From a virus, in the IMG/VR virus record IMGVR_UViG_3300025120_000025, positions 1-64,000 of that record: 64,000 bases of DNA, one strand, 5' to 3'. A model generated the notes under the pieces. The model had not been told where the DNA came from. It worked only from the letters and a program-made list of their open reading frames with translations, and did no database searches. Made by a program: the position numbers and the translations under genes. Positions within the stretch are counted from its first letter, which is position 1, and each line of letters begins with the position of its first letter. Shown piece by piece: positions 14,307 to 53,787 of this stretch.

Positions 14307-14638
14307 TGGCGGTTATAGACTTTAGTAGATTAATTAGTTTCAAGCAGTGGTTTGATAGAACAAATCAATTAGGGTCTAATACAGGCGATCCTGCAGTGAT
14401 TAACGCTGACTTAGGTAGTAATCTAGTCAATGCAATCAATGTAGTTCATACCGACTTGGGTAACAAGGCGGCATTAAACACTGAAGTAACAACAAACTTA
14501 GTTGAAGCAATGAATGATTTGAATGCTACAATTAGTAGATTTCGATTAAACGAAGGTGAACCACAAGCATATGATATGCATCCTCAAGCAGTATTTGGTA
14601 CTGATAGTGATTTTGATGCACATGGTATGGTTGAATAA
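14306..14638 (+). CDS. Short fibre-associated structural protein, copy 2 of a paralogue pair
   Basis: 110 residues, paralogous to the upstream 93-residue protein: FKQWFDRTNQLG, TGDPAVINADLGSNLVNAINVVH and TNLVEAMNDLN align with its TN...GDPA...NVVAGINE pattern. It has an extra C-terminal tail of about 30 residues with a PQAYDMHPQAVFG stretch. No enzymatic motif is seen. A virion or fibre-base role is inferred from position in the adhesin region. Confidence 0.65.
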   Translation: MAVIDFSRLISFKQWFDRTNQLGSNTGDPAVINADLGSNLVNAINVVHTDLGNKAALNTEVTTNLVEAMNDLNATISRFRLNEGEPQAYDMHPQAVFGTDSDFDAHGMVE

Positions 14639-14641
14639 ATA
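14634..14641 (+). promoter_or_regulatory. Possible variant late promoter (AATAAATA)
   Basis: AATAAATA differs from the late core TATAAATA at one base and overlaps the stop of the preceding gene. The ribosome site AGAGGA and the ATG at 14665 follow. Weaker than the exact copies elsewhere. Confidence 0.35.
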
Positions 14642-14664
14642 GAAATATAAAGTAGAGGAAAAAA

Positions 14665-15000
14665 ATGGCAAACGATTTTCAAAATGCTATATCAAACAAT
14701 ATAGGAACAGGTCGAACTGATTTATATACTACACCTTCTGCCGTTGGCAAAAGAAGTATGTTGATTGGTCTAGAACTTGCTAATATTAGTGGTAGTGCGA
14801 TTACAGTAGATGTCGATGTCTATGATGCTTCTGCAACCGCATATGTTACAATGGGCAACGACCTTGCGATACCTGCTAACTCAACATTATCATTCATATC
14901 TGGACAAAAAATTGTTCTATCGAATGGCGATAAAGTAGCAGTCACATCAAGTGCGAGTGCATCATTGAATGCGATTGCAAGTATCTTAGAGGACATCTAA
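14665..15000 (+). CDS. Small beta-rich virion protein, unknown role
   Basis: 111 residues with alternating hydrophobic strands (LIGLELANISGSAITVDVDVYD, DLAIPANSTLSFISGQKIVLSNGDKVAV), suggesting a single beta-sandwich. It resembles in layout the 108-residue protein at 16720-17046 (an N-terminal strand, a DVYD/LLINDG edge, PAN, a sequence ending in a beta strand). It is separated by 2 bases from the long fibre-like gene downstream. No known family is recognised. Confidence 0.65.
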   Translation: MANDFQNAISNNIGTGRTDLYTTPSAVGKRSMLIGLELANISGSAITVDVDVYDASATAYVTMGNDLAIPANSTLSFISGQKIVLSNGDKVAVTSSASASLNAIASILEDI

Positions 15001-17061: not shown

Positions 17062-19449
17062 ATGCCATATATTGGAAGAACTAAATCAAACAACATTCGA
17101 ACTCAGAGGTTCATTGCCGATGGTGTTCGTAAGATATATCAGACAGAGTTTATACCTGTTAGTGATAATCAGTTATCAATATATATTGATGGCGTCTATC
17201 TTAACGACCAAGACTTTGTTTTCAAACACCCAAATAAAGTACTACTATCTGATGCACCTGCAAACGGTGCAGAAGTTGTTATTCAAGCACTTAAAGCATC
17301 TGAATATCAATCAGTTCGTTCTAAAACTTATGTAGCGAGTGGTTCACAAAGAATATTCTCATGTGGATTTACTCCACCTGATGAGTATTCAATTATTGTT
17401 ACAAAGAATGGCGACATTCTTCAAGATAAAGATTATGTAGTTCAAGGTAGTAAAGTTGTACTAACAAGTATGCCTTCTACTGGTCAAGAGATTGAAATTC
17501 GTGGTATCTATGATATCATCGATCCTTCTGGTAACGCACAAGCATCTAACTCACTCTCTATTAAAAGAACAAGAGGTATAACAGACGGATTTCAAAACAT
17601 TATGCCTATGCATCAAAAGAATGATGCAGAAAATAATCTACTAGTCTTTAGAGGTGGAGCGTCTGCTTCAGTCATGTCTAATCACAACGAATATGCTATC
17701 GTAAACGACTACAAGTATGTTCACGAAAGCAGATTATCAGAAAATATTCCTATCGAATTTAGAGGTCTAAAAGGTACAACATATTCTAATCTGTCACGAA
17801 GAGTGCAGATGGCAAAACATATCAGTGGTGTTCCTACTACTATCAACGCAACTCCTACTTCCTCTGGTACTTCTGGATATTCAAACGCAAATAATCTAGA
17901 AGCAAGAGGTGGTTCTGGTCAAGGATTCAGAGTTAACATTACAACTTCTGGTGGACAAGTAACAAACGTAGCAATCAATACTACCCTAGCAGGTGGCGAC
18001 TTTGCATATGGTTATCAAGCAAACGAAGTTCTAACAATTATTCAAGCAGGTTCTACGAACAATGCTACAGTGACAATCACTGCAGTAACAGACAGAAACG
18101 GTCAAAAGTACTTTGATGTAAATAATCATCATTGGGATCCAGCAAATAACACATATCAAAAAGAAACAACTTATACATACTCAGCGGATGAAGCAGATTT
18201 AATCGTTGCCGTAGATGGTATTATTCAACCATTTAATCAATACTCTGTAGTATCTGCAGACTTCAACGAAGGTTCAGGAGCATCTAATCAAGTTGTAAAC
18301 ATTGGTTCATATGTTGGTGTTGATGATACTGCATCTAAAATTGAAATTAGAGATTTAAAAGAATTAGTATCTAATGCAGACGCAGTTCTATTAGCAGACA
18401 CAGTAATATCAAGAGCAGTATGGGTCTCAAACGGGTCTGCCGCCGCATTTAATACTTCATCAGGTACAGAAACCACACATGGTTCATTTACAAACTTAGC
18501 GGCAAACGCCGCAAACGAAGAATGCTTCTTAGTTATTGTCGATGGTATTATTCAGGATAGAGATACATGGTCAATTTCTACAACTACTTTAACAGTTGGT
18601 GGTTCACCAGGTTCATCTGACCAATCAGTCAGAGTTGAATTGATTTACTTTGAAACACTAATACCTTCTGGTTCACATAATACACAAGACTGTTTGCAAG
18701 TTACAATGACTGGTAACGCAACAACTGGTCTTGGTGACCATCAGTTTATTAGACTACTTGACAGAGCAACTGGACTAAAAGAAATACATCCATCTTCAGA
18801 TGATTGTGTCATTGTAGACGTTAATGGCGTTTACCAGAACGATGATGCATACTTCATCGATAAGAACAAATTGTGCTTCTTTGATACAGTAGATAATCCA
18901 GCATTCGGCGCAATCGTCAATGTTAAAGTTCTAAAAGGCACAGAAGTTGTCGCCGCTAATAGAAGAAAAGTACAATTAAGAGGTACTGGTAGTGCGACAC
19001 AATTTACACTACCGTTTACATCAACTACAACTCCAAAAGATTTTGGTATTCTTGTATCAGTCAATGGTAAAATGCTTAGAGATGAAGAATTTGCTCTTGC
19101 ATCAACTACATTAACATTCAATGTCGCACCTGCTAACGATGCATTTATTGAAGTACAAGGCATCTTTGACATTACAACATACACTGGTGCTTCTTCAGCA
19201 ACCGACTTAGAAACTAGAAAACTAGAGTTTACTTGTAACGGGTCGCAACAAATATTTGACTTATCAGATTTAGTTTTTGAGAAACACGCATATGGTACCG
19301 TTCAAGATACATACAATGAACAAAAAATACTAATTTTTTATGAGGGAGAGTTGCAAGACCCAACTAAATATATAATAGTAGGAAATAAATTATACTTAAC
19401 TACACTACCTGTTAATGAAACAAAGGTAGAAGTCGTAAGGTTCATATAA
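17062..19449 (+). CDS. Tail-fibre protein with repeated strand-turn modules
   Basis: 795 residues built from repeats of one module: a strand, then SIYIDGVYLNDQDFVF, SIIVTKNGDILQDKDYVV, DLIVAVDGIIQPFNQYSV, FLVIVDGIIQDRDTWSI, DCVIVDVNGVYQNDDAYF, DFGILVSVNGKMLRDEEFAL and ILIFYEGELQDPTKYII. At least seven copies are visible. This [V/I]DGxxQ-x-Y module is typical of phage fibre N-terminal and stalk domains (T7 gp17-like). A GSGQGFRVNITTSGG insert lies near residues 290-345. Probably a fibre shaft or adaptor (inference). Confidence 0.75.
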   Translation: MPYIGRTKSNNIRTQRFIADGVRKIYQTEFIPVSDNQLSIYIDGVYLNDQDFVFKHPNKVLLSDAPANGAEVVIQALKASEYQSVRSKTYVASGSQRIFSCGFTPPDEYSIIVTKNGDILQDKDYVVQGSKVVLTSMPSTGQEIEIRGIYDIIDPSGNAQASNSLSIKRTRGITDGFQNIMPMHQKNDAENNLLVFRGGASASVMSNHNEYAIVNDYKYVHESRLSENIPIEFRGLKGTTYSNLSRRVQMAKHISGVPTTINATPTSSGTSGYSNANNLEARGGSGQGFRVNITTSGGQVTNVAINTTLAGGDFAYGYQANEVLTIIQAGSTNNATVTITAVTDRNGQKYFDVNNHHWDPANNTYQKETTYTYSADEADLIVAVDGIIQPFNQYSVVSADFNEGSGASNQVVNIGSYVGVDDTASKIEIRDLKELVSNADAVLLADTVISRAVWVSNGSAAAFNTSSGTETTHGSFTNLAANAANEECFLVIVDGIIQDRDTWSISTTTLTVGGSPGSSDQSVRVELIYFETLIPSGSHNTQDCLQVTMTGNATTGLGDHQFIRLLDRATGLKEIHPSSDDCVIVDVNGVYQNDDAYFIDKNKLCFFDTVDNPAFGAIVNVKVLKGTEVVAANRRKVQLRGTGSATQFTLPFTSTTTPKDFGILVSVNGKMLRDEEFALASTTLTFNVAPANDAFIEVQGIFDITTYTGASSATDLETRKLEFTCNGSQQIFDLSDLVFEKHAYGTVQDTYNEQKILIFYEGELQDPTKYIIVGNKLYLTTLPVNETKVEVVRFI

Positions 19450-19462
19450 AAAAGGTAGAAAA

Positions 19463-19990
19463 ATGGCACTGACAAAATTAACAAAACACATCGTTTATGG
19501 AGCGACTATCGTTCAATGTAGATTTAAGGACCTTTCTAATCTAGATACGACCGCTACTGCGGCAACAGCATGGGATAATATGACGATTACTCCTCAATAT
19601 TCAGATAGTATATTAGAAGTTAGATTTAGTGGAACTATGTCAAACCTTACTGATAATTCTGCTCCCAATTCAGGAACTTTCGATATCAATCAGATTAATC
19701 TAATTATGGATATTAATGGTCAAACTGAATATATTATAAACAATGCCGCCTCAACTGCATCTGGTGATATGGCATATTCTACATCTGCTGGTCGTAGAGA
19801 AGGTAAAGCGGTTAATATGTTCCATAGACATTTACCTGGAACTACAAACCAACAAACTATTACTATGCAAACATCTAGAGGTTCTTCTCATGGTGGTGGT
19901 AACTTACAGTGTAGGTCGGGATTCTTAATGGCAAAAGAAGTTGCAGGAGGTATTCTAACAGGTACACCTGGTAATGCTTTCGTTAACTAA
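19463..19990 (+). CDS. Fibre-tip-like paralogue 1 of 5 (HxH-containing)
   Basis: 175 residues, first of five tandem paralogues. All begin MxLxKxxKxxxxG, have a TPQYSDSILE-like strand at about residue 45, a long strand region, and a C-terminal FHRHLPGTTNQQTITMQT-like segment. This copy keeps one HxH (HRH) and SSHGGG. HxH pairs bind iron in the needle tip of T4 gp37; a similar receptor-binding tip role is inferred. It is the most divergent of the five. The ribosome site AAAAAGG precedes the ATG. Confidence 0.65.
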   Translation: MALTKLTKHIVYGATIVQCRFKDLSNLDTTATAATAWDNMTITPQYSDSILEVRFSGTMSNLTDNSAPNSGTFDINQINLIMDINGQTEYIINNAASTASGDMAYSTSAGRREGKAVNMFHRHLPGTTNQQTITMQTSRGSSHGGGNLQCRSGFLMAKEVAGGILTGTPGNAFVN

Positions 19991-43153: not shown

Positions 43154-44626
43154 ATGAAAAGCAAAAGAGTATGTGTACTAGGTGCTGGTAACGCAGGATT
43201 AATGGCGGCACTTATATTGAAAATAGAACGACCAGGACTTGATGTTTATGTTGTAGGTTCATCAGAAATAGGTATCGTAGGTGTTGGCGAAAGTAGCACA
43301 GAACACGTTAATTATTTTAGAGACTTACTTGGCGTATCAGTTCAAGATTTTGTCACAGAAAGTGGTTGTACCTTTAAGTATGGTGTAGACTTTCAAGGTT
43401 GGACCGATAAGAGATATATTCACTCTCTTACTGCGAATGACGATGGTATTCGTACAGACCCTTATCACACCGAACCAGAAGAATTATTCATGTATACAAA
43501 CATGAGTGCGAATTGCGATCCATTAGATTTAGTTCAACCTACACAATTAAACTATGAAGTTTCTGAAACAGATAATTTTCCTAATCAGTTTCACTTTGAC
43601 ACACAGAAGTTTAATAAATTTCTTCATACACAGATAAAAAAACGTGGTATTAGATATTATGATGATATTATTAGTTCAGTAAAGGTAAGTGAATGGGGCG
43701 ATTGTGAAGCGATTGAAAGTGAAAGTACAAGATATGAGGCAGACATCTTTGTTGATGCTAGTGGATTTAAAAGAATTATAGCATCAGAAGTGCCTGGTTT
43801 TGAATTTCATTCTAGACAAGATGAGATGTTTGTAGATAGTGCATTTGCATTTCAGTGTCCGCATGATGAACCAGATAACTATCCAGTATTTACTCAAGCA
43901 CACAAAATGAACTGTGGTTGGATGTGGAGAATACCTACGTCTGAACGTATGGGTAATGGTTATGCATATAGTTCAAAGCATATCTCATATGAAGATGCAG
44001 TCGAAGAAGTAACAGAGAAACTAGGGTTTAGACCAAATGTTGGTAAGACTTTCAAATTTGAAGCAGGTAATTATAAAAGAACATGGGTAGGCAATACAGT
44101 ACTGATTGGTCTATCATCACACTTTTACGAACCTTTAGAAGCAACTGCAATCGGTGTTGGCATATCACAAGCAAGAGTATTAGCGAACTATATTAATTCG
44201 TCTACCATATCTAAAAATACATACAATACAATAATTCAAGATTTATTTGAACAAGTATTTGCTTTTGTGAGACTACACTATGTAAACTGTCATGCAGATA
44301 CACCTTTTTGGCAAGATGTATCTAAGTCAATTATACCGCCAGAAGTGAAAAAATATCTTGACATTACTAGTGAACGTGTGCTATTATTAGAAGATGTTGG
44401 AAATATAAGTGGTGCAGTCACCACAGAAAATAGAATATTTGGGGCACATAACTGGAATCAAGTACTGTATGCATTAGGGTTTTTATCAGAAGAAGTTCTT
44501 AAAGACCATGTACAAGCATATGGACATATTCCTAGACGTAGAAAATTTAAAGATTTTGACGATGTGATCCCACATAAACAATTAATTGATAAATGGAACA
44601 ATAATGAAAATAGCATTAGTAACTGA
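43154..44626 (+). CDS. Flavin-dependent (tryptophan-type) halogenase
   Basis: 490 residues. The FAD-binding GAGNAG (10-15) and GVGES (43-47) lie at the N-terminus. The halogenase signature GWxWxIP is present as GWMWRIP (255-261). Lys75 in TFKYGV is at the place of the catalytic lysine of PrnA, and Glu329 in EPLEA at the place of the second catalytic residue. It should need reduced FAD, oxygen and chloride or bromide to halogenate an aromatic substrate. PrnA-like genes are known in some cyanophages; the substrate is unknown. It begins three bases after gp55 and overlaps gp47. Confidence 0.88.
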   Translation: MKSKRVCVLGAGNAGLMAALILKIERPGLDVYVVGSSEIGIVGVGESSTEHVNYFRDLLGVSVQDFVTESGCTFKYGVDFQGWTDKRYIHSLTANDDGIRTDPYHTEPEELFMYTNMSANCDPLDLVQPTQLNYEVSETDNFPNQFHFDTQKFNKFLHTQIKKRGIRYYDDIISSVKVSEWGDCEAIESESTRYEADIFVDASGFKRIIASEVPGFEFHSRQDEMFVDSAFAFQCPHDEPDNYPVFTQAHKMNCGWMWRIPTSERMGNGYAYSSKHISYEDAVEEVTEKLGFRPNVGKTFKFEAGNYKRTWVGNTVLIGLSSHFYEPLEATAIGVGISQARVLANYINSSTISKNTYNTIIQDLFEQVFAFVRLHYVNCHADTPFWQDVSKSIIPPEVKKYLDITSERVLLLEDVGNISGAVTTENRIFGAHNWNQVLYALGFLSEEVLKDHVQAYGHIPRRRKFKDFDDVIPHKQLIDKWNNNENSISN

Positions 44627-45671: not shown

Positions 45672-47386
45672 TAAAATTTGAATATGTAAGGTGGCGCAAT
45701 TTTCTATCTACAGGAAATCAATTCACCGAAATTGAAGTATGTAAATCACCAACGACACTTGTAGTTGGTTCAAATGGTTCTGGTAAGTCTACATTCATAG
45801 ATGCTCTATGTTTTGCATTGTTTAATAAACCTTTTCGTAAGATTAAGATTGGTCAGTTAATCAATTCAATTAACATGAAAGATGCACTAGTAGAAGTTGA
45901 ATTCAGTATTGGTTCTTCTCAGTATAAAGTAAGAAGAGGATTAAAACCTAATCTGTTTGAAATTTATCAGAACAATATCTTAATTAATCAAGATGCGGCA
46001 ACGAAAGACTATCAAGAGTTTTTAGAGAAACAGATACTAAAACTAAACTATAAGTCTTTCACTCAAATTGTTGTTCTTGGTTCATCGACTTTTATACCCT
46101 TTATGCAACTACCAGCACCTCATCGTAGAGAGATTATTGAAGATTTACTTGACATTCAAATATTCACACGAATGAATGATATTCTCAAAGGTGAGTTGTT
46201 ACAAGTTGGTTCAGAGTATAAAGATGCAGAGAGTAAACTGTCGGTTGTTCGACAGTCAATCGATTTGCAAGAAGACTACTTGGAGCGAATAGATGAGCAA
46301 CGTAAGAAATCGACAGAGGAAATTAACGAGCGAATTGTCAAGGCGAAGAACACAATACATGAATACACAGAAGAAGTCTCCGAAAAACAACGAACTATCG
46401 CTGAATTACAACGAAGCATTGAAGACGAGGAATCAATTACACGCAGAAAAAATAAAATAAACTCATTACAAGACCAGATGAAGCGAACACAAAAGAAAGT
46501 TGCGAATGATATTACATTCTATAGAGATAATGATGAGTGTAGTACTTGTAAGCAAGATATTCCTGTATCATTTAAAGAAGATGTAATCAAAGCAAGAACT
46601 GCTAAACTACAAGAGATTGAAGTGGCATCTGTTGATTTAGATAGAAAATGGGATGATACAAATACTAGATTGAATGAGATACATGAAGTTCAAAAGAAAG
46701 TAACTTGGCAACAACAATCTATTAATGATAGACAAGTTCGTATTCAAGCAGAGAACAGAAGCATTGCAGAATGGAATACAGACATTGAACGTGCGAATGC
46801 TATAGCATTAAATGATGAAGAACATCAAAACAAACTTGTTACTATGAGAGAAGAAGAACGTCAAGTATCTGACACAAAGAATACATTGAACGACAAAAGA
46901 TATTACTCAGAGATATCAGCAAACTTACTCAAAGATACTGGTATCAAAACTAAGATTATAAATCAATATCTACCAGTCATCAATCATTATGTAAATCATT
47001 TTCTACAAGCACTTGACTTCTTTGTTCAGTTTAATCTTGATGGTTCATTCAAAGAAACAATCAAGTCTAGACATAGAGATGATTTTAGTTACGCATCATT
47101 CTCTGAAGGCGAGAAGTTGAGAATTGATTTATCACTATTGTTTACTTGGCGTACTATTGCAAAGATGAAAAATTCAACTAACACAAATCTATTGATACTA
47201 GACGAAGTGTTTGATAGTTCATTAGACGCAAATGGTACAGAAGAGTTTTTAAAAATCCTAAATACTATGGACAAAGGAATCAATGCATTTGTCATATCGC
47301 ATAAAGGTGACACATTGTTTGACAAGTTTACAAACACAGTTCGTTTTGCGAAACCAAATAATTATTCTAGAATTGAGGCACAATGA
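45668..47386 (+). CDS. gp46: Recombination nuclease subunit gp46 (Rad50-like)
   Basis: 572 residues (T4 gp46 is 560). Walker A GSNGSGKST (34-42), a long coiled coil (about 175-430) with the zinc hook CSTC (291-294), the signature FSEGEKLRIDLSL, and Walker B NLLILDEVFDSSLD are all present. It forms the ATPase arm of the gp46/47 complex that processes double-strand ends. ATGA overlaps link it to gp47 and to the deformylase gene. Confidence 0.96.
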   Translation: MIKFEYVRWRNFLSTGNQFTEIEVCKSPTTLVVGSNGSGKSTFIDALCFALFNKPFRKIKIGQLINSINMKDALVEVEFSIGSSQYKVRRGLKPNLFEIYQNNILINQDAATKDYQEFLEKQILKLNYKSFTQIVVLGSSTFIPFMQLPAPHRREIIEDLLDIQIFTRMNDILKGELLQVGSEYKDAESKLSVVRQSIDLQEDYLERIDEQRKKSTEEINERIVKAKNTIHEYTEEVSEKQRTIAELQRSIEDEESITRRKNKINSLQDQMKRTQKKVANDITFYRDNDECSTCKQDIPVSFKEDVIKARTAKLQEIEVASVDLDRKWDDTNTRLNEIHEVQKKVTWQQQSINDRQVRIQAENRSIAEWNTDIERANAIALNDEEHQNKLVTMREEERQVSDTKNTLNDKRYYSEISANLLKDTGIKTKIINQYLPVINHYVNHFLQALDFFVQFNLDGSFKETIKSRHRDDFSYASFSEGEKLRIDLSLLFTWRTIAKMKNSTNTNLLILDEVFDSSLDANGTEEFLKILNTMDKGINAFVISHKGDTLFDKFTNTVRFAKPNNYSRIEAQ

Positions 47387-47940
47387 TACTACCACTAACA
47401 AATCCACATGACGTTAAGAACTTAGGCGCACCGCCTGAATTTGATTTTCTAAACCCTATTGTTGAACCTGTAGAACTTGCAGATAGACTGTGGGAGAACA
47501 TGAAACACTATAATGGTGTAGGACTATCTGCTACGCAAGTAGGTATTCATACTAAAGTGTTTGTGATGGGTAGAGATGATTTTCGTATGAATGTTTTTAA
47601 TCCTAAAGTTATTCAGATATCACCTGAACTACAAGCATTCAAAGAAGGTTGTTTAACATGGCCATTCTTAATGTTATCAATTAGAAGACCTGTAGATTGC
47701 ACTATAACATACTACAATGAACACAACGAAGCAAAGAACATCAAACTACAAGATATGTCTGCTAGAGTATTCTTACATGAGTATGACCATATGTTAGGCA
47801 TTGATTTCACACAGAGAGCATCTAAACTAGCACTAGATATTGGTATGAAGAAAAGAGATAAGATGTTAAAAAAATTGGAGCGATCCGGAAAGTTAGAGAA
47901 AGCAGATGGAGACACTTACTCAATACCACAGACTTCCTAA
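47383..47940 (+). CDS. def: Peptide deformylase
   Basis: 185 residues. All three motifs are visible: GVGLSATQ (45-52, usual GxGLAAxQ), EGCLTW (88-93, usual EGCLS), and HEYDH (132-136), giving the Cys and two His metal ligands and the catalytic Glu. It removes the formyl group from new proteins. Phage-encoded deformylases are known in marine phages. ATGA overlap with gp46; the next gene begins 35 bases before its stop. Confidence 0.92.
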   Translation: MILPLTNPHDVKNLGAPPEFDFLNPIVEPVELADRLWENMKHYNGVGLSATQVGIHTKVFVMGRDDFRMNVFNPKVIQISPELQAFKEGCLTWPFLMLSIRRPVDCTITYYNEHNEAKNIKLQDMSARVFLHEYDHMLGIDFTQRASKLALDIGMKKRDKMLKKLERSGKLEKADGDTYSIPQTS

Positions 47941-48442
47941 AGAAGACGAAATCGTATCACAAGGTTTAGAACTGTTTAGTTGGGATACTGCTATTGAAAA
48001 TTTTGAAGCATCTGTAGCAGAACGAAAAAAGTATTCTGACTTTGTTCAACGTGGTGTGAGAGTTGTGGGTATTGAGGATGAAGATGATGAAACAAAGTTT
48101 AATATGTTACCTACACTTGTTTCTCATCATGCAGAACTAATACCAGTCGTTCAAGAAATGAGAAAAGTGTTAGAATTTAAACACAATGTCAAAGACCCAC
48201 ATAGAGTTAATTGTCATATGTTTATATCACTGGTATCACACTCACAATGCTTTGACTGGCACAGTGATTATGATAACACATACATCTGGCAGATAAAGGG
48301 TAGAACAAAATGGTACACTGGTGAAGATGATGCCATACTTGAACCAAATGATATGATATATATTCCACACGGAAAGATGCACAGATTAGAAATTATAGAA
48401 CCAAGAATATCAGTAAGTTTCAGCATTGAGAGAAAGGTATAA
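47906..48442 (+). CDS. Cupin/JmjC-like Fe(II) oxygenase candidate
   Basis: 178 residues. The C-terminal half has the double-stranded beta-helix pattern with metal ligands: CFDWHSDYDNTYIWQIKG (H119 and D121) and YIPHGKMHRLEI (H155 or H159), then PRISVSFSIE with R167. This fits cupin_8/JmjC-like hydroxylases that use 2-oxoglutarate. The substrate is not known. It overlaps the deformylase gene by 35 bases. First of four such enzymes in the block up to 53.8 kb. Confidence 0.7.
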   Translation: METLTQYHRLPKEDEIVSQGLELFSWDTAIENFEASVAERKKYSDFVQRGVRVVGIEDEDDETKFNMLPTLVSHHAELIPVVQEMRKVLEFKHNVKDPHRVNCHMFISLVSHSQCFDWHSDYDNTYIWQIKGRTKWYTGEDDAILEPNDMIYIPHGKMHRLEIIEPRISVSFSIERKV

Positions 48443-48443
48443 T

Positions 48444-49577
48444 ATGGAAGAAGCAATGAAAGATTGGCAGAAAGGATATCAGTTAGATTATCTAAAAGAG
48501 ATTACTGCCGAGTACGATAATTATAATAAATACACCGATAGTCCTTTTGCACAGTTCAAGAAGAATAACGTAGCAGACTTTTTAGATAAAGGTACTCTAC
48601 GCAAAGCAGGCGATGCTTGGATTAATATTAAAGAAGCAAAAGTTCGTTCTAAGATTACGATGCATGGAACTGGACCTATCATCGGTTATAAAGAACCTGG
48701 TGATGTTATAATTGAAAATATTTCTCAGTACACAGAGAATGTAAAAAACTATATCGGAGCATATTCTAATAGAAGTTGCTGGTTGTTTGGTTGGGCAGAA
48801 GATGAAAAGTTTATTCATTTTGCTGAAGATTGTGGGTTTGAGTATGTTGGTAGTAAAATAACGACATTTGCAGAGATTTATAGCGTATACTATCGTAATT
48901 CTAGTATATCCTTCGAGGATCGTTCACACACGCTCATAGACGGCGCTGAGGCGGTTAACATCAAGAAGTGTACATTTGATAACATCGAAACATCGTTTAT
49001 CGTCACTGAACTAGAAAATATCCAACAAGAATACACAAATCACTACTCAAATTACAATAAGAAAGGATCATGGTCAGCAATATCTCTCAGAGGTTACAGA
49101 CCAGATGCATCTTTTATTGCAAAACCAGTAGAGATGAATAAGAAATGGAAAGCAGATAACGATACATGGGAAGAATGGCAATGTGAAGATACCCCATTGC
49201 GTGAAAAGTTTCCTTATGTAAATGAACTTATTTCGAAGATACCTACTGATAGGGTCGAACGGATTAGATTTATGTCTCTCGTACCAGGAGGTGGAGAATT
49301 GAGTAGACATACTGACCAAGTCGATCCTGACTTAGGTGTTGCAGACGGAAGAATTATGAGACTACATATTCCAGTAATTACAAATCCTAAGATGGAGTTT
49401 ACTTCATGGAATATGCATGGTCAGAAACATAATGTAAATATGAAAGAAGGTGAACTGTGGTACCTCGATATTCGAAAACCACACATGGCAGTGAATAATG
49501 GTGATGATATCAGAATTCATTTAGTAGTGGATGTAGAAGCAAATGATAAATGCAGACGATTATTTAGCGTTAGTTGA
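48444..49577 (+). CDS. GNAT-like domain fused to aspartyl/asparaginyl hydroxylase-like domain
   Basis: 377 residues from the ATG at 48444, with AAAGG as ribosome site (an upstream in-frame ATG at 48426 lies inside the previous gene). The N-terminal part (about 1-150) has a GNAT acetyltransferase-like layout ending FAEDCGFEYVGSKITTFAEIYSVYYR. The C-terminal part has SRHTDQVDPD (H289, D291), RLHIPV, KPHMAVNNG (H347) and R357, the pattern of aspartyl/asparaginyl beta-hydroxylase-type oxygenases. The GNAT call is weaker than the hydroxylase call. It overlaps the next gene by 35 bases. Confidence 0.7.
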   Translation: MEEAMKDWQKGYQLDYLKEITAEYDNYNKYTDSPFAQFKKNNVADFLDKGTLRKAGDAWINIKEAKVRSKITMHGTGPIIGYKEPGDVIIENISQYTENVKNYIGAYSNRSCWLFGWAEDEKFIHFAEDCGFEYVGSKITTFAEIYSVYYRNSSISFEDRSHTLIDGAEAVNIKKCTFDNIETSFIVTELENIQQEYTNHYSNYNKKGSWSAISLRGYRPDASFIAKPVEMNKKWKADNDTWEEWQCEDTPLREKFPYVNELISKIPTDRVERIRFMSLVPGGGELSRHTDQVDPDLGVADGRIMRLHIPVITNPKMEFTSWNMHGQKHNVNMKEGELWYLDIRKPHMAVNNGDDIRIHLVVDVEANDKCRRLFSVS

Positions 49578-50310
49578 AGATTGGGTCGACCCTTATGATG
49601 CACCCGTTATTGAGATGCATGATGACATTCATGTTGTTCGTGACGATTTGCTTCCTGCTGGTAGTAAGATTAGGTTCATCGACAAACTCATTAGAGATAC
49701 CGAATGCGAAGAATGGGTATTTGGAGGAAGCAACAAAGTTGGTTGGGGTCCTATTTCTTTAGCGTATGTTTGTAAAAAATATAATAAGAATTCAACTTGC
49801 TTTTGGGCGGCACGAAAAGAACCAACATGGCATCAAGAAAAATATCTTGAATACGGAGGTAATATTGAATGGGTGAAGATGGGAATGTTAAATGTTACTC
49901 TGTCAAAAGCAGAGCATTATCGCAGAGAGAGTCCGAAGACCCGAAAGACGTTGCCTTTAGGACTAGAACACGATTGGGTGCTAGGAAGTATAGTGAAAGT
50001 ATCGCAGTCGCTACCTCTAGTGCCAGACGTAATATGGACAGTAGGATCAAGCGGAACTCTGAACCGAGGGTTGCAACTTGCATTCCCAGAGTCCGAAGTT
50101 CATGTGATACAGACGGGTCATAAACTTAGTGAGAGACAGATTGGTAGAGCAATCTTACATGAAGTACCTTATAAGTTTGATAAACCAGTAAAAGAGGAAG
50201 AAGCACCACCTTTTCCTTCTGCGCCTGAATATGATGCGAAAGCATGGAAAGTGATAAAAGAAAATATGAACAATAGTAAAACTAATTTATTTTGGAATGT
50301 AGCGGCATGA
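49543..50310 (+). CDS. PLP-dependent enzyme fold (ACC deaminase / cysteine synthase-like), short form
   Basis: 255 residues. VVRDDLLPAGSKIRFIDKLI (K42) resembles the KREDL-GGxK segment that carries the PLP lysine of ACC-deaminase-type enzymes. GGSNKVGWGPISLAYVCKKY follows the helix after it, and VIWTVGSSGTLNRGLQLAF (GSSGT, 168-172) resembles the phosphate-binding loop. The protein is shorter than family members (about 300-340). It may be an active lyase or a degenerate form. Overlaps both neighbours; the substrate is unknown. Confidence 0.6.
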   Translation: MINADDYLALVEDWVDPYDAPVIEMHDDIHVVRDDLLPAGSKIRFIDKLIRDTECEEWVFGGSNKVGWGPISLAYVCKKYNKNSTCFWAARKEPTWHQEKYLEYGGNIEWVKMGMLNVTLSKAEHYRRESPKTRKTLPLGLEHDWVLGSIVKVSQSLPLVPDVIWTVGSSGTLNRGLQLAFPESEVHVIQTGHKLSERQIGRAILHEVPYKFDKPVKEEEAPPFPSAPEYDAKAWKVIKENMNNSKTNLFWNVAA

Positions 50311-50855
50311 GAAAGCAAATCGATTATGTAGATGATTTGTTTACTGATGAGTTTATTCAAGAAGTATCAACTAAGTATCATACAAATTTATTTGAATATG
50401 GCAACGTATCTAATAATCCTAATGATGCAATCTTTTGGTCATCTAGACGTTTGAATGATAATTCACCGATTACAGATTGTTGGCATCAAAAGAAAATACT
50501 TGATGTTATATCTGACTATTATAAATTTAAAACTTTCAAAGTAGACAATCAAAATATCTATATCAATGGTCAGACATATAAGTTAGATGGTTCAATGCAT
50601 ATCGATAGTGGTCATAGAACTGATCCTGATGCACACATGACAATCTTGTATATGGTAAACTGGCAAGATGCAGGCATACAAGGTTTTGAAACAAATATGG
50701 GTATTGTTCCATTCAAGGCAGGTAGAGTTGTGATTTTCAACTCAATAATGTCACATAGAGGACTATCTACTGAAAGCGTGAATAATCTAAGAATGACATT
50801 AACTTGGAAAAGTTGCGAAATAGTACTTGACAAAACTAGTCCTTTAGTGTTATAA
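50307..50855 (+). CDS. 2-oxoglutarate/Fe(II) oxygenase
   Basis: 182 residues from the ATG at 50307, which overlaps the previous stop (ATGA); a longer in-frame start at 50292 is inside the previous gene. GSMHIDSGHRTDPDAHMTILYMVN carries H98 and D100; IFNSIMSHRGLS carries H150; NLRMTLTWK carries R162 for 2-oxoglutarate. This is the usual 2OG-FeII layout of phage prolyl-hydroxylase-like proteins. The substrate is unknown. Its last bases contain a near-consensus promoter. Confidence 0.8.
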   Translation: MRKQIDYVDDLFTDEFIQEVSTKYHTNLFEYGNVSNNPNDAIFWSSRRLNDNSPITDCWHQKKILDVISDYYKFKTFKVDNQNIYINGQTYKLDGSMHIDSGHRTDPDAHMTILYMVNWQDAGIQGFETNMGIVPFKAGRVVIFNSIMSHRGLSTESVNNLRMTLTWKSCEIVLDKTSPLVL

Positions 50856-50856
50856 T
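50827..50856 (+). promoter_or_regulatory. Near-consensus promoter at the end of the oxygenase gene
   Basis: TTGACA (50827-50832), 18-base spacer, TATAAT (50851-50856). The preceding bases TAGTAC match those before the promoter at 53797. The -10 box overlaps the ATG of the 75-residue gene, so RNA from here would mainly serve the methyltransferase at 51079. Confidence 0.55.
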
Positions 50857-51082
50857 GAAAACTTATATACACGTTAATCAACATAAGATTAGAGCAAACA
50901 AAAAACATGGTACCAATGAACCTGTCATCACTATCAAAAAAGGTAGAACGAACACATATTGTCATGCAGTTAAAATACATGGCGACAGTGTAGTGAGATA
51001 TGGTGGTAGCGAAAAACCTATTCTCTCTTGCGGTGCAAGAGTAGTAATAGAAACTGACAATGAAGTAGAGGTTATTGAATGA
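50855..51082 (+). CDS. Small basic protein, unknown
   Basis: 75 residues: MKTYIHVNQHKIRANKKHG, then alternating strands (EPVITIKKGRTNTYCHAVKI, CGARVVIETDNEVEVIE). Small beta-rich basic proteins of this kind are conserved beside enzymes in marine phages without a known function. It overlaps both neighbours (TAATG and ATGA), so it is probably translated with the methyltransferase. Confidence 0.65.
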   Translation: MKTYIHVNQHKIRANKKHGTNEPVITIKKGRTNTYCHAVKIHGDSVVRYGGSEKPILSCGARVVIETDNEVEVIE

Positions 51083-52635
51083 AGCATTTTTACGAGAGAA
51101 ATAGTTATCTATTAGAACACGAAGTCAATAAGACATTCGAAGAAGTTCTATGGATGTCCGATGAAGATTTTAGAACATGGTTGCGTGATATGCGTAGAGA
51201 AGTCGTTTATTCATGGGATACTCTCGGTCTACCCCCTAGAGTTGGTTGGTCAGAAGATAAGATTATTGACCAGTTTAATAAGATGTCTAGTTTCAACGTA
51301 AAAGACTTTGAATGCTTTAATGAAGAAACTAATGACACAGATGTTATTAGAAATACTAGTGTTATAGGTAATGCCGCCAATCAGTTCTTTCCTACAATGA
51401 TGAAGACTAAGATTGTGTATAATGATATAAGTAAAGCAAAGAGCATCTACGACCATTTTGTAGACGAAGACTTATTTCAAAAGGTATACACATATGGACA
51501 TAGACATTTCAAGAGAGATAGTTTTTATCACTATTCTAATCCTGTCAAGTTGGATGATGTACTAGATTTCGAAAATCAAAAGTACAAAGTAAAATCTGGC
51601 GTAGACTTTATTAACTGGTTTGAGAAAGTAGGAAGACAATACGATACACACGACTATTGGTTGAAACCTGATAAAGAAGAAGAGTATACAGGTTATGATG
51701 ATAAACTTAGAGGTGTTAATTGGGCATCTTTAACTAGAGAAGAAATTGAGAAATTAGATATTCCTGAGAACTGTAAAGTAAACATGAAAGATGATATGAA
51801 TGTATATCAAATTATGTTTTTTAAAAAAGGTCAAAAGATTTTTCCTCTAGGTTTCAAACCATTTCGTATTTCATGGTGTCAATATGCCGTGAACTTTCCA
51901 CCATTAACTGCAAAGTATCTCTATGAAAAATATACCGAACACTTTAAAGAACAGTCTACTATTCGTATTTGGGATCCTAGTGCTGGTTGGGGTGGTCGTA
52001 TTCTCGGTGCTATGTCTGTTCGTGATGACCGCTCTATACATTATATTGGTACTGATCCCAACACTGACCACACTGTTGTATTGGAAGATGGTACCAAATC
52101 AACAAAGTATGAAGAACTAGCGAGATTTTTCAATGAAAAAACATACAGAGGCAACGGACTCTTCCCACACACAAACACATACGAGATACATCAAGTCGGT
52201 TCAGAGACCTTTGAGTGTGAGGAAAACTCTCTCGACATGGTATTCACTTCCCCACCATATTTCGCCAAAGAGGCGTACAGTGATGACGAAGAACAATCAT
52301 ACAAGAAGTTCGACCAATACGAAACGTGGGTAGAAGGTTTTCTGAGACCTACATTAGAGAATGCTTACAAGTATCTTAAAAGCGACAGATACTTGCTCTG
52401 GAACATTGCTGATGCTAAATTTGGTAACACTATGCTTCCACTAGAATCCGATAGCATAAATATATGTAAGAACCTAGGGTTTGAATATGTGACTATGTTG
52501 AAAATGGCACTTGCTCAAATGCCTGGCGGTAATAGAGTAGATGAGGAGACAGGTAAACCACGAGCAAAGAATTTTTGTAAAGTGAATGGTATCTGGTTAA
52601 AATATGAACCAATCTTTGTTTTTAGAAAGTCGTAA
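51079..52635 (+). CDS. DNA amino-methyltransferase with long N-terminal extension
   Basis: 518 residues. The C-terminal domain has motif I DPSAGWGGRILGA (299-311), IGTDPN and the catalytic motif IV TSPPYF (390-395), the pattern of N6-adenine or N4-cytosine DNA methyltransferases. The first 270 residues form a separate domain (WLRDMRREVVYSWDTLGLPP, NTSVIGNAANQFFPTMMKTK, a MFFKKGQKIFPLGFKPFRISW link) with no recognised family. No restriction enzyme is seen nearby, so it is probably an orphan methylase for protecting or marking phage DNA. Confidence 0.8.
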   Translation: MKHFYERNSYLLEHEVNKTFEEVLWMSDEDFRTWLRDMRREVVYSWDTLGLPPRVGWSEDKIIDQFNKMSSFNVKDFECFNEETNDTDVIRNTSVIGNAANQFFPTMMKTKIVYNDISKAKSIYDHFVDEDLFQKVYTYGHRHFKRDSFYHYSNPVKLDDVLDFENQKYKVKSGVDFINWFEKVGRQYDTHDYWLKPDKEEEYTGYDDKLRGVNWASLTREEIEKLDIPENCKVNMKDDMNVYQIMFFKKGQKIFPLGFKPFRISWCQYAVNFPPLTAKYLYEKYTEHFKEQSTIRIWDPSAGWGGRILGAMSVRDDRSIHYIGTDPNTDHTVVLEDGTKSTKYEELARFFNEKTYRGNGLFPHTNTYEIHQVGSETFECEENSLDMVFTSPPYFAKEAYSDDEEQSYKKFDQYETWVEGFLRPTLENAYKYLKSDRYLLWNIADAKFGNTMLPLESDSINICKNLGFEYVTMLKMALAQMPGGNRVDEETGKPRAKNFCKVNGIWLKYEPIFVFRKS

Positions 52636-53284
52636 TCTTTTTGTAAACCCTCCAGTTGATTTTGAAGATTGGGGTAATTTCGATTATGATAAAGCGTTTG
52701 GCATTGACAAGTATTGTTACAATGCATACAGGCACTTTATCTTACCTTATCTAACAGACCCAACTAATCAAACTATTGTTGATATTAACACCGGTAAAGG
52801 TTGTGGTATCGCTGGACTCAAGAGAGAGTTTGGTTTTAAAAAGTGTATCGGATTTACAGGTTCAACTCAATTACTACATCACTGCAAAGATATATGGAAT
52901 GAAAAAGGTCTATCATTCTATAAAGACTTCATCTTGTCTAAGCAAGGTAAAGCAGACTTTCTATTTTCATATGAAGCATTCGAAGATTATGATAATAAGA
53001 GTGCATTACTACTTAGACTATCACAAGCACTAAATGAAGACGGAATTTTAGTTATCATACAATCAACTTTCAATGATTATGAATATCACAGTTATGAGAA
53101 TATTCTAGAGAATGTACATGGACTTAAAAAATTATCATCTCAAGATATATCTGCCCATGTACTACAAGGAATCAAACAATTTGAACACCACAACGATGGT
53201 TCGATGTCTATTATGCATTCAAGATTTAGTAAAAACTTAACGAGACATGAGTATAAAATTATGGCAAGTGTATTTCAGAGATGA
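52604..53284 (+). CDS. SAM-dependent methyltransferase-like protein
   Basis: 226 residues. The class I fold is suggested by TIVDINTGKGCGIAGLKREFG (motif I, about 58-78), KKCIGFTGSTQLLHHCKDIW, KADFLFSYEAFED and LSQALNEDGILVII. The glycine loop is DINTGKGCG rather than DxGxGxG, so SAM binding is likely but not certain. The substrate is unknown. It overlaps the DNA methyltransferase by 32 bases and the next oxygenase by four. Confidence 0.6.
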   Translation: MNQSLFLESRNLFVNPPVDFEDWGNFDYDKAFGIDKYCYNAYRHFILPYLTDPTNQTIVDINTGKGCGIAGLKREFGFKKCIGFTGSTQLLHHCKDIWNEKGLSFYKDFILSKQGKADFLFSYEAFEDYDNKSALLLRLSQALNEDGILVIIQSTFNDYEYHSYENILENVHGLKKLSSQDISAHVLQGIKQFEHHNDGSMSIMHSRFSKNLTRHEYKIMASVFQR

Positions 53285-53787
53285 CAACAGTTTCAGTATT
53301 TGAAAATTTTCTATCATACGATGATTTATTTAATGTGAAAGAACTATCGAATGAAATCTATTATAGTCCAGACGCTTGTAAAAGTACTAATGCTGGTTGG
53401 ACTAAAGCAGTAATAGGTAATAGTTTTCCTGTTGTTTGTTGTAAGATAGAAGATGAAAAGTTATTAGAAGTTCTACAGAAAAAGATAGATGAAACTGCAA
53501 ATGAGTATGAGATAAAATCTGCAAGTTTTTTCTATTGGACAGAATTCAGTTATATACCTTGGCACGATGATGCAGGTCACGATGCGGCAATGACAATATA
53601 CTTATCCGACCACGATGAAAATGATGGTGGATATTTCATGTATAAAAGACAAGAAGAGATTGTAGCAATACCACCAGTAATGAATAGAGCAATACTTCAA
53701 GTAGAAGGCGTACCACATTCGACCACTGCATTGAATTCTAGGTCACCTATACGAAAAACAATTCAAATATTTCTTCAAAAAAAGTAA
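53281..53787 (+). CDS. 2-oxoglutarate/Fe(II) oxygenase (prolyl-hydroxylase-like)
   Basis: 168 residues. FSYIPWHDDAGHDAAMTIYLSD carries H95 and D97, GVPHSTTALN carries H146, and IRKTIQIF carries R158, the full 2OG-FeII set. N-terminal SVFENFLSYDDLFNV is the common opening of this family. ATGA overlap with the methyltransferase-like gene. It is the last gene of the long operon; a promoter follows 10 bases later. Confidence 0.8.
   Translation: MTTVSVFENFLSYDDLFNVKELSNEIYYSPDACKSTNAGWTKAVIGNSFPVVCCKIEDEKLLEVLQKKIDETANEYEIKSASFFYWTEFSYIPWHDDAGHDAAMTIYLSDHDENDGGYFMYKRQEEIVAIPPVMNRAILQVEGVPHSTTALNSRSPIRKTIQIFLQKK

Follow-up and report, generated by a model that had tools for sequence, protein, structure and literature searches.

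The window analysed here, a 64,000-nucleotide stretch of a viral record from IMG/VR (IMGVR_UViG_3300025120_000025, positions 1 to 64,000), carries eight consecutive plus-strand genes between positions 47906 and 53787, directly after a gene for peptide deformylase. An initial annotation had grouped these genes, which we label A to H (Table 1), as one overlapping block of accessory enzymes, and they are indeed present in the order it gave. Overlap was confirmed for deformylase and A (35 nucleotides), B and C (35), D and E (1), E and F (4), F and G (32), and G and H (4); A and B are separated by a gap of 1, and the best start of D, judged from the translation, is an ATG at 50307, which lies within C, four bases from its end. 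A scan for promoters and terminators gave numbers similar to those in shuffled sequences (62 versus 54.9, standard deviation 8.3, and 4 versus 4.3, standard deviation 2.3, respectively). The window is part of the record of a marine T4-like phage, with gp46, gp47 and NrdA/B-like, RecA/UvsX-like and DNA-polymerase-like proteins recognised by eye. Using Pfam, PHROGs and NCBIfam, we assigned B to a GNAT-fold domain joined to a 2-oxoglutarate (2OG)-Fe(II) oxygenase, C to a small pyridoxal-phosphate (PLP)-dependent enzyme, and F to an amino-type DNA methyltransferase. For all three proteins the catalytic residues align with the families that had been named for them. In our judgement it is probable that B, C and F constitute a DNA hypermodification module, which would build and trim an amino-acid-like decoration on a base.

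These three genes stand apart from their neighbours in conservation. Measured against eight relatives, with medians taken over the relatives in which a gene was found, identity was 83% for B, 84% for C and 86% for F, compared with 84% for gp47 and 77% for gp46, which puts B, C and F on a level with replication genes. The medians for A, D, G and H were 43-49% (A 43%, D 49%, G 49%, and H from two relatives), and those for the deformylase and for a halogenase encoded upstream were 64% and 57%, respectively. E was 89-93% identical in the three relatives where it was found, and is missing from many. Using tblastn with the window's own proteins (threshold 1e-8), we recovered B in 102 of 103 loci, F in 76, C in 69, D in 24, A in 21, G in 19, E in 13 and H in 8; the loci were not de-duplicated, many have short flanks, and distant versions are missed in these counts, as for the 2OG gene that lies between C and F in locus L044. 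Since both identity and recurrence are high for B, C and F and low for their neighbours, we consider these three genes to be the core. The co-occurrence expected from the initial annotation was thus observed for B, C and F, which mostly stay together, and was not observed for A, D, G, H and the halogenase, which scatter among relatives. Most of these relatives are metagenomic fragments, and T4-like markers were present in 89 of the 103 loci. In two loci (L044:8264-8722 and L096:7598-8062) C and F are separated by a dCMP-deaminase-like gene, recognised by eye.

Table 1. Genes of the block, flanking genes and related arrangements in other phages. Positions of A to H, the deformylase and the halogenase refer to the window; the others refer to loci designated by L numbers.
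Feature	Position	Strand	Assignment and remarks
A	47906..48442	+	JmjC/cupin-type 2OG oxygenase; JmjC_2 PF08007, E 6e-7; variable neighbour
B	48444..49577	+	GNAT-fold domain (~residues 1-160) + aspartyl/asparaginyl-hydroxylase-type 2OG-Fe(II) oxygenase; core gene
C	49543..50310	+	small fold-type II PLP-dependent enzyme, 255 residues, lysine K42 in GSKxR; phrog_7093, 1.3e-34; core gene
D	50307..50855	+	2OG-Fe(II) oxygenase; 2OG-FeII_Oxy_3 PF13640, E 7.2e-4, below cut-off; variable neighbour
E	50855..51082	+	75-residue protein; phrog_8676, 7.9e-21
F	51079..52635	+	518-residue amino-type DNA methyltransferase (by motifs); N6_N4_Mtase PF01555, E 1.7e-7; core gene
G	52604..53284	+	class-I methyltransferase-like; Methyltransf_23 PF13489, E 3.4e-6, 27.3 bits vs cut-off 27; variable neighbour
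H	53281..53787	+	small 2OG-Fe(II) oxygenase; PF13640, E 1.6e-4, below cut-off; variable neighbour
Peptide deformylase	47383..47940	+	PF01327, E 2.7e-30; upstream flank, outside module
Flavin-dependent (tryptophan-type) halogenase	43154..44626	+	PF04820, E 1.4e-89; outside module
Second PF01555 methyltransferase	L024:12565-13260; L021:7306-7989; L027:2556-3224; L028:5571-6242		beside or near B in distant phages
ParB + first half of amino-type methyltransferase + PLP + second half of methyltransferase	Pam4 L236:2035-4524; R6L L015:6807-9229		one polypeptide

To follow the association further, we kept the best 80 of 202 B loci most like gp4 of Mycobacterium phage LilMcDreamy, plus loci from two other searches, and the best 80 of at least 538 viral loci most like the C relative of phage JY30. 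Loci are called distinct once those sharing an identical stretch of B or of C have been removed, and nothing more. C, or a distant fold-type II PLP cousin that can replace it in the same slot (PLP2), was found downstream of B in 53 of 73 distinct B loci, and 6 of the 73 were loci with the gene for amino acid:DNA transferase (ADDT, PF18724) known from thymidine hypermodification. When at least 5 kb of downstream sequence was available (44 distinct loci), 32 loci had a PLP gene and F, 6 had F alone, 4 had ADDT and 2 had neither in the flank. Gene-by-gene reading of one F-only locus, L075, showed a direct overlap of F with B. As to the two exceptions, L087 has a C relative and a methyltransferase elsewhere on the same 37-kb contig, and a search of 19 kb more gave no match for L062. 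PALP (PF00291) was sought in 15 records in which the B locus either has no PLP gene nearby or is of the ADDT type, and gave one match, in the record of L087; as PALP fails to match even the window's own C, this search is weak. In distant T4-like phages the gene after B is PLP2, behind which there is often a 2OG or GNAT-like gene together with methylases resembling F.

The oxygenase part of B matches Asp_Arg_Hydrox (PF05118, E 4.3e-15), and the residues H289, D291, H347 and R357, which make up the HxD...H motif and the 2OG-binding arginine, are invariant in 15 B sequences. In a predicted model of B (predicted local distance difference test score, pLDDT, 89.5) the best structural match of the oxygenase was L-proline cis-4-hydroxylase (4p7w, E 2.6e-11), which was also the best PDB match of B. 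B differs from this closest solved structure in being ~21% identical to it and in having an additional N-terminal domain, and human AspH follows it in the ranking. The N-terminal domain, modelled alone with a pLDDT of 93.5, is predicted to have a GNAT fold, with GNAT-type proteins (by title or recall) in the 50 matches shown both by Foldseek (best E 3e-5, TM-scores ~0.4-0.55) and by VIA-align (best Z 11.2, root-mean-square deviation 3.6, 135 aligned). At the sequence level this part of B gave no GNAT-family Pfam match; in a profile comparison it matched a free-standing gene of PLP2 loci (E 4e-7, 93% probability), which itself has a weak GNAT match (FR47, 0.071). For B, Mom of phage Mu, a GNAT-fold protein that modifies DNA, was also considered.

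C itself has no Pfam match, PALP included, and PDB sequence searches with the single C sequence or its JY30 relative gave no useful match; PALP does exceed its cut-off for the C relatives of phages R6L and JY30. With a profile of C and PLP2 sequences, the best PDB match was 1-aminocyclopropane-1-carboxylate (ACC) deaminase (1j0a, E 3e-4), with the lysine motif aligned, nearly tied with cysteine synthase (5xem, E 4.5e-4). C is shorter than ACC deaminase, its closest solved relative by sequence profile, and differs from it also in that its own relatives adjoin DNA methylases. The PLP-lysine motif was present in 185 of 193 C/PLP2 matches (not de-duplicated); seven of the other eight begin past the motif and one (L215) retains the lysine. 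The K42 column of C was invariant in two alignments (A2 and A6). The C and PLP2 profiles matched each other with an E of 5e-5, but with a probability of 68%. C itself matches three phage records, and PLP2-type genes match 346, of which two reach 80% query coverage and most are partial. By name these are mainly phages of Salmonella (158), Vibrio (61), Klebsiella (44), Escherichia (29) and Dickeya (19).

The PF01555 match of F scored 31.8 bits against a cut-off of 26.7. Motif I (DPSAGWGGR) starts at residue 299 and TSPPY at 390, the latter being invariant in eight F sequences (8 of 10 planned rows, with L025 and L030 left out), and by these motifs F is an amino-type DNA methyltransferase. A PDB sequence search with F yielded a weak match to a modification methylase alone (E 0.11). 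The second PF01555 methyltransferase listed in Table 1 (1.6e-19 in L024) has TSLPD or TSVPD in place of SPPY and an intact DPFxGSG motif; it may be a non-catalytic partner of F.

Outside the T4-like phages, the relatives of C adjoin an amino-type methyltransferase that usually has a ParB domain. Such a methyltransferase was present within 2.5 kb in 90 of 104 distinct C loci (L228, which has no C match, was left out), 76 of which also have ParB; several of the 14 remaining loci are cut close to C. The bacterial contigs with this pairing are, by title, mostly alphaproteobacterial. In Erythrobacter phage R6L and Pseudanabaena phage Pam4 the PLP domain is inserted in the methyltransferase itself, between motif I and SPPY, which are 320 and 337 residues apart, respectively, compared with 69 in JY30 and 71 in Vincenzo, where the PLP enzyme is encoded by a neighbouring gene (of the PLP2 type in Vincenzo). 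The R6L/JY30 methyltransferase is a distant relative of F, as indicated by phrog_12517 and phrog_498 and by the motifs. In the R6L paper gp1 is called a CcrM-like methylase, and the words 'pyridoxal' and 'ParB' do not occur in that part of its text that was available.

B also has relatives in DNA-modification loci. LilMcDreamy gp4 is 30% identical to B over ~250 residues, and its neighbours include a ParB protein and gp3, which is an ADDT (2.7e-12, over the cut-off); gp2 has a sub-threshold Tet_JBP match (0.0022) and the PHROG label 'queuine tRNA-ribosyltransferase'. The order ParB, TET-like, ADDT, B repeats in IMG/VR (L036, which is LilMcDreamy itself, L037, L039, L040 and L041, with L039 and L041 nearly alike), and L042 has the same layout without a TET-like match. 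This is the layout of thymidine hypermodification, and a similar five-gene locus of Rhodococcus phage Tonitrus has been described as a possible thymidine hypermodification system (PMC11955845, in its available portion). ADDT was over the cut-off in 6 of 22 records, all of the LilMcDreamy type, and in none of the 16 others, the window's record included; it was also absent from the R6L, JY30 and Vincenzo records, which are described as complete genomes. PLP2 and ADDT occur together in both of the PLP2 records checked for this, Kuttervirus aagejoakim (Ackermannviridae), which is of the ViI type, and Pseudomonas phage Cygsa01, at distances of ~9 and 18 kb, that is, in the same record and not in the same locus. 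For the Kuttervirus phages Vi01 and CBA120, the available part of one paper gives 5-(2-aminoethoxy)methyldeoxyuridine (5-NeOmdU) in ~40% of thymidines (PMC11721090). Two other routes were tried and rejected: bulk modification at the nucleotide level, with no match to the thymidylate-synthase family (PF00303) in nine records, and the CmoA/CmoX route, with no match to CmoA (TIGR00740) or to C5-methyltransferases (PF00145) in three records each, all of these records being possibly fragments. The TET-like family (PF12851) gave no match in four records, again possibly fragments, and none in control genomes either.

Both the PLP enzymes and B are found with either of two openers, ADDT and an amino-type methyltransferase. 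Because ADDT is absent from the methyltransferase-type records checked, the family of F probably replaces it as the installer. An amino-acid substrate would fit as well, since the proline-hydroxylase-like B and the ACC-deaminase-like C/PLP2 both belong with enzymes that use amino-acid substrates, and the ViI-type PLP enzymes are said, in work by Lee from 2022, to have as their substrate an amino acid that the DNA already carries. We therefore propose that F would act first, modifying a DNA base at what is probably an exocyclic amino group, after which C and B would remodel the amino-acid-like group carried by the base. The modified base would then hide the phage DNA from host nucleases. The tailoring pathway suggested by the initial annotation, which had left a protein, a nucleic acid or a small molecule open as its target, was right in kind, with DNA now the inferred target; its extent over eight genes and a halogenase was not supported. 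A more specific version of this proposal, which we offer tentatively and regard as unlikely, is that F and the related ParB-methyltransferases transfer the 3-amino-3-carboxypropyl arm of S-adenosylmethionine (SAM), and not its methyl group, onto a DNA base, with C then acting on it and B hydroxylating and acylating it. This possibility is suggested by the fact that SAM itself carries an amino acid. A methyltransferase fold that transfers the aminocarboxypropyl arm is found in TYW2 of wybutosine synthesis. If true, such a transfer would equip DNA with an alpha-amino acid independently of both ADDT and 5-hydroxymethyldeoxyuridine (5-hmdU), and would represent a second, widespread route to amino-acid-bearing DNA that draws on a cofactor present in every cell.

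Several observations weigh against a DNA hypermodification module of B, C and F. After the proline hydroxylase, the next structural matches of B are entries of the protein-acting human AspH (E 3e-9 and weaker), so that a protein substrate would be compatible with its fold. The canonical coenzyme-A pyrophosphate loop of GNAT enzymes is [QR]xxGx[GA]. It was not seen between beta-4 and alpha-3 (as positioned from the predicted model) in 20 B sequences, eight of which have the pattern elsewhere, and for this reason the GNAT domain of B may not be an ordinary acetyltransferase. The link to LilMcDreamy gp4 comes from a BLAST match to residues 113-360 alone, mostly oxygenase, and the N-terminal ~260 residues of F are not accounted for by the proposal. 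In six B loci with at least 5 kb downstream, F is present and a nearby PLP gene is lacking, which means that C is not always required. The synteny comes in large part from related T4-like phages at one site and is therefore partly a matter of shared ancestry, and our selection favoured loci like LilMcDreamy gp4 (best 80 of 202) and like the C of JY30 (best 80 of at least 538). Finally, genes missing from the window's record prove little, because this record of 102,947 bases is probably a fragment.

We also considered whether the same data could be explained otherwise. C might make a modified SAM-like donor, as CmoA makes carboxy-SAM, whose donor group would be transferred to DNA by F before B hydroxylates or acylates the product. 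The insertion of a PLP domain inside a methyltransferase would suit the channelling of a small molecule, and CmoA/CmoX set a precedent for a special donor (PMC12783734, in its accessible part), but PLP2-type genes occur in two ADDT-bearing records, where no such donor would be needed, and this together with the lack of a CmoA match in the three records makes the idea unlikely. It is quite improbable that F serves simply as an anti-restriction methylase (N6-adenine or N4-cytosine) and that C and B belong to an unrelated pathway kept by shared ancestry. The amino-methyltransferase motifs of F are intact, the relatives of F and of the JY30 methyltransferase occur in 24 and 25 phage records, respectively, compared with three for C, and the T4-like synteny is fixed at this site, all of which speaks for this reading. 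However, the PLP-methyltransferase pairing recurs in unrelated phages (R6L, JY30, Pam4 and Vincenzo) and in bacterial contigs, even within one polypeptide, and C and a methyltransferase share a record even where C is not beside B, as in L087.

Modification of RNA (tRNA or rRNA) or of a host protein would agree with the AspH-like matches of the B oxygenase, with the protein substrates that JmjC-type oxygenases and GNATs often have, and with the occurrence of PF01555-like folds in RNA methyltransferases. We nevertheless consider such a target very unlikely, as the partners of the homologues are ParB, amino-type DNA methylases, TET-like and ADDT genes. Hardly any credence can be given to the view, taken from the initial annotation, that all eight genes and the halogenase form one pathway, perhaps for a small molecule, and we rejected it. 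The genes do overlap on one strand, and the halogenase was seen in every one of the seven close relatives covering its place, but it was found in 12 of the 65 loci that cover the gp47 region and not in the other 53, while A, D, G and H were recovered in 8-24 of 103 loci, with conservation far below that of the core. Moreover, marine T4-like phages commonly have many 2OG oxygenases, as described for 14 of 16 cyanophage genomes (PMC3037559, available part). We retain the DNA hypermodification module as our preferred explanation.

With regard to the variable neighbours, A keeps HxD...H, and D and H keep HxD...H...R (for H in three sequences). D and H also match phrog_274 (8.7e-18 and 9.6e-10, respectively), which PHROGs labels 'DNA endonuclease V'; as the 2OG residues are kept in both, we preferred to name them oxygenases. 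The halogenase is not adjacent to the block, since gp47, gp46 and the deformylase intervene; it sits between a sigma-55-like gene (by eye) and gp47, and among the loci seen it is confined to close relatives. Halogenases are known from T4-like cyanophages (PMC3037559, same part). Elsewhere in the window's record a Nol/NodU-type carbamoyltransferase (PF16861) lies beside a 2OG oxygenase at 96332-96829 (L019:11350-13068). Its candidacy as a base carbamoylase was set aside, the family being found in 2 of 9 records; carbamoylation of the modified base is a possibility. Four further 2OG-oxygenase-like genes were seen in the rest of the record (L018:18635-19237 and 19215-19730; L019:13056-13700 and 14362-14946), all recognised by eye except L019:13056-13700 (PF13759, 1.3e-13).

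Which restriction and CRISPR defences are effective depends on the hypermodification of phage DNA, and such modification is also a source of novel base chemistry. Were the methylase the installer, DNA modification of the amino-acid type would not be tied to 5-hydroxymethyluracil. Since the simpler methylase-PLP form exists in cultured phages and in bacterial contigs, the question of its product can be addressed with DNA of cultured phages. The route is possibly one that has not yet been described: the titles and abstract openings among the search results listed contained no description of the B-C-F set or the ParB-methyltransferase-PLP set, although the papers of Lee from 2018 and 2022 may mention such a set.

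Among known systems, the phage ParB-amino-methyltransferase proteins (phrog_498) that occur with phrog_7093 PLP genes are related to the module through C, which matches phrog_7093. F has no recognised ParB domain and an N-terminal part of its own, and the T4-like set gains B. The 5-carboxymethylcytosine pathway CmoA-CmoX-CmoY, in which CmoX is a C5-methyltransferase and CmoY an amide ligase, likewise has a methyltransferase-fold enzyme that opens hypermodification, and many of its contigs hold ParB-domain proteins (PMC12783734, as far as the accessible part of the paper goes). F differs from CmoX, as described there, in being of the amino type. In the phages ViI and M6, thymidine hypermodification reportedly follows an ADDT route through 5-hmdU, as laid out by Lee in 2018 and 2022. 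The window's record has no match to ADDT, to the thymidylate-synthase family or to the TET-like family (for which no control matched either), and has an amino-type methyltransferase instead. What is shared with those loci or records is the B family and PLP enzymes with a common fold, and the logic of first installing and then sculpting an amino acid would be common to both systems.

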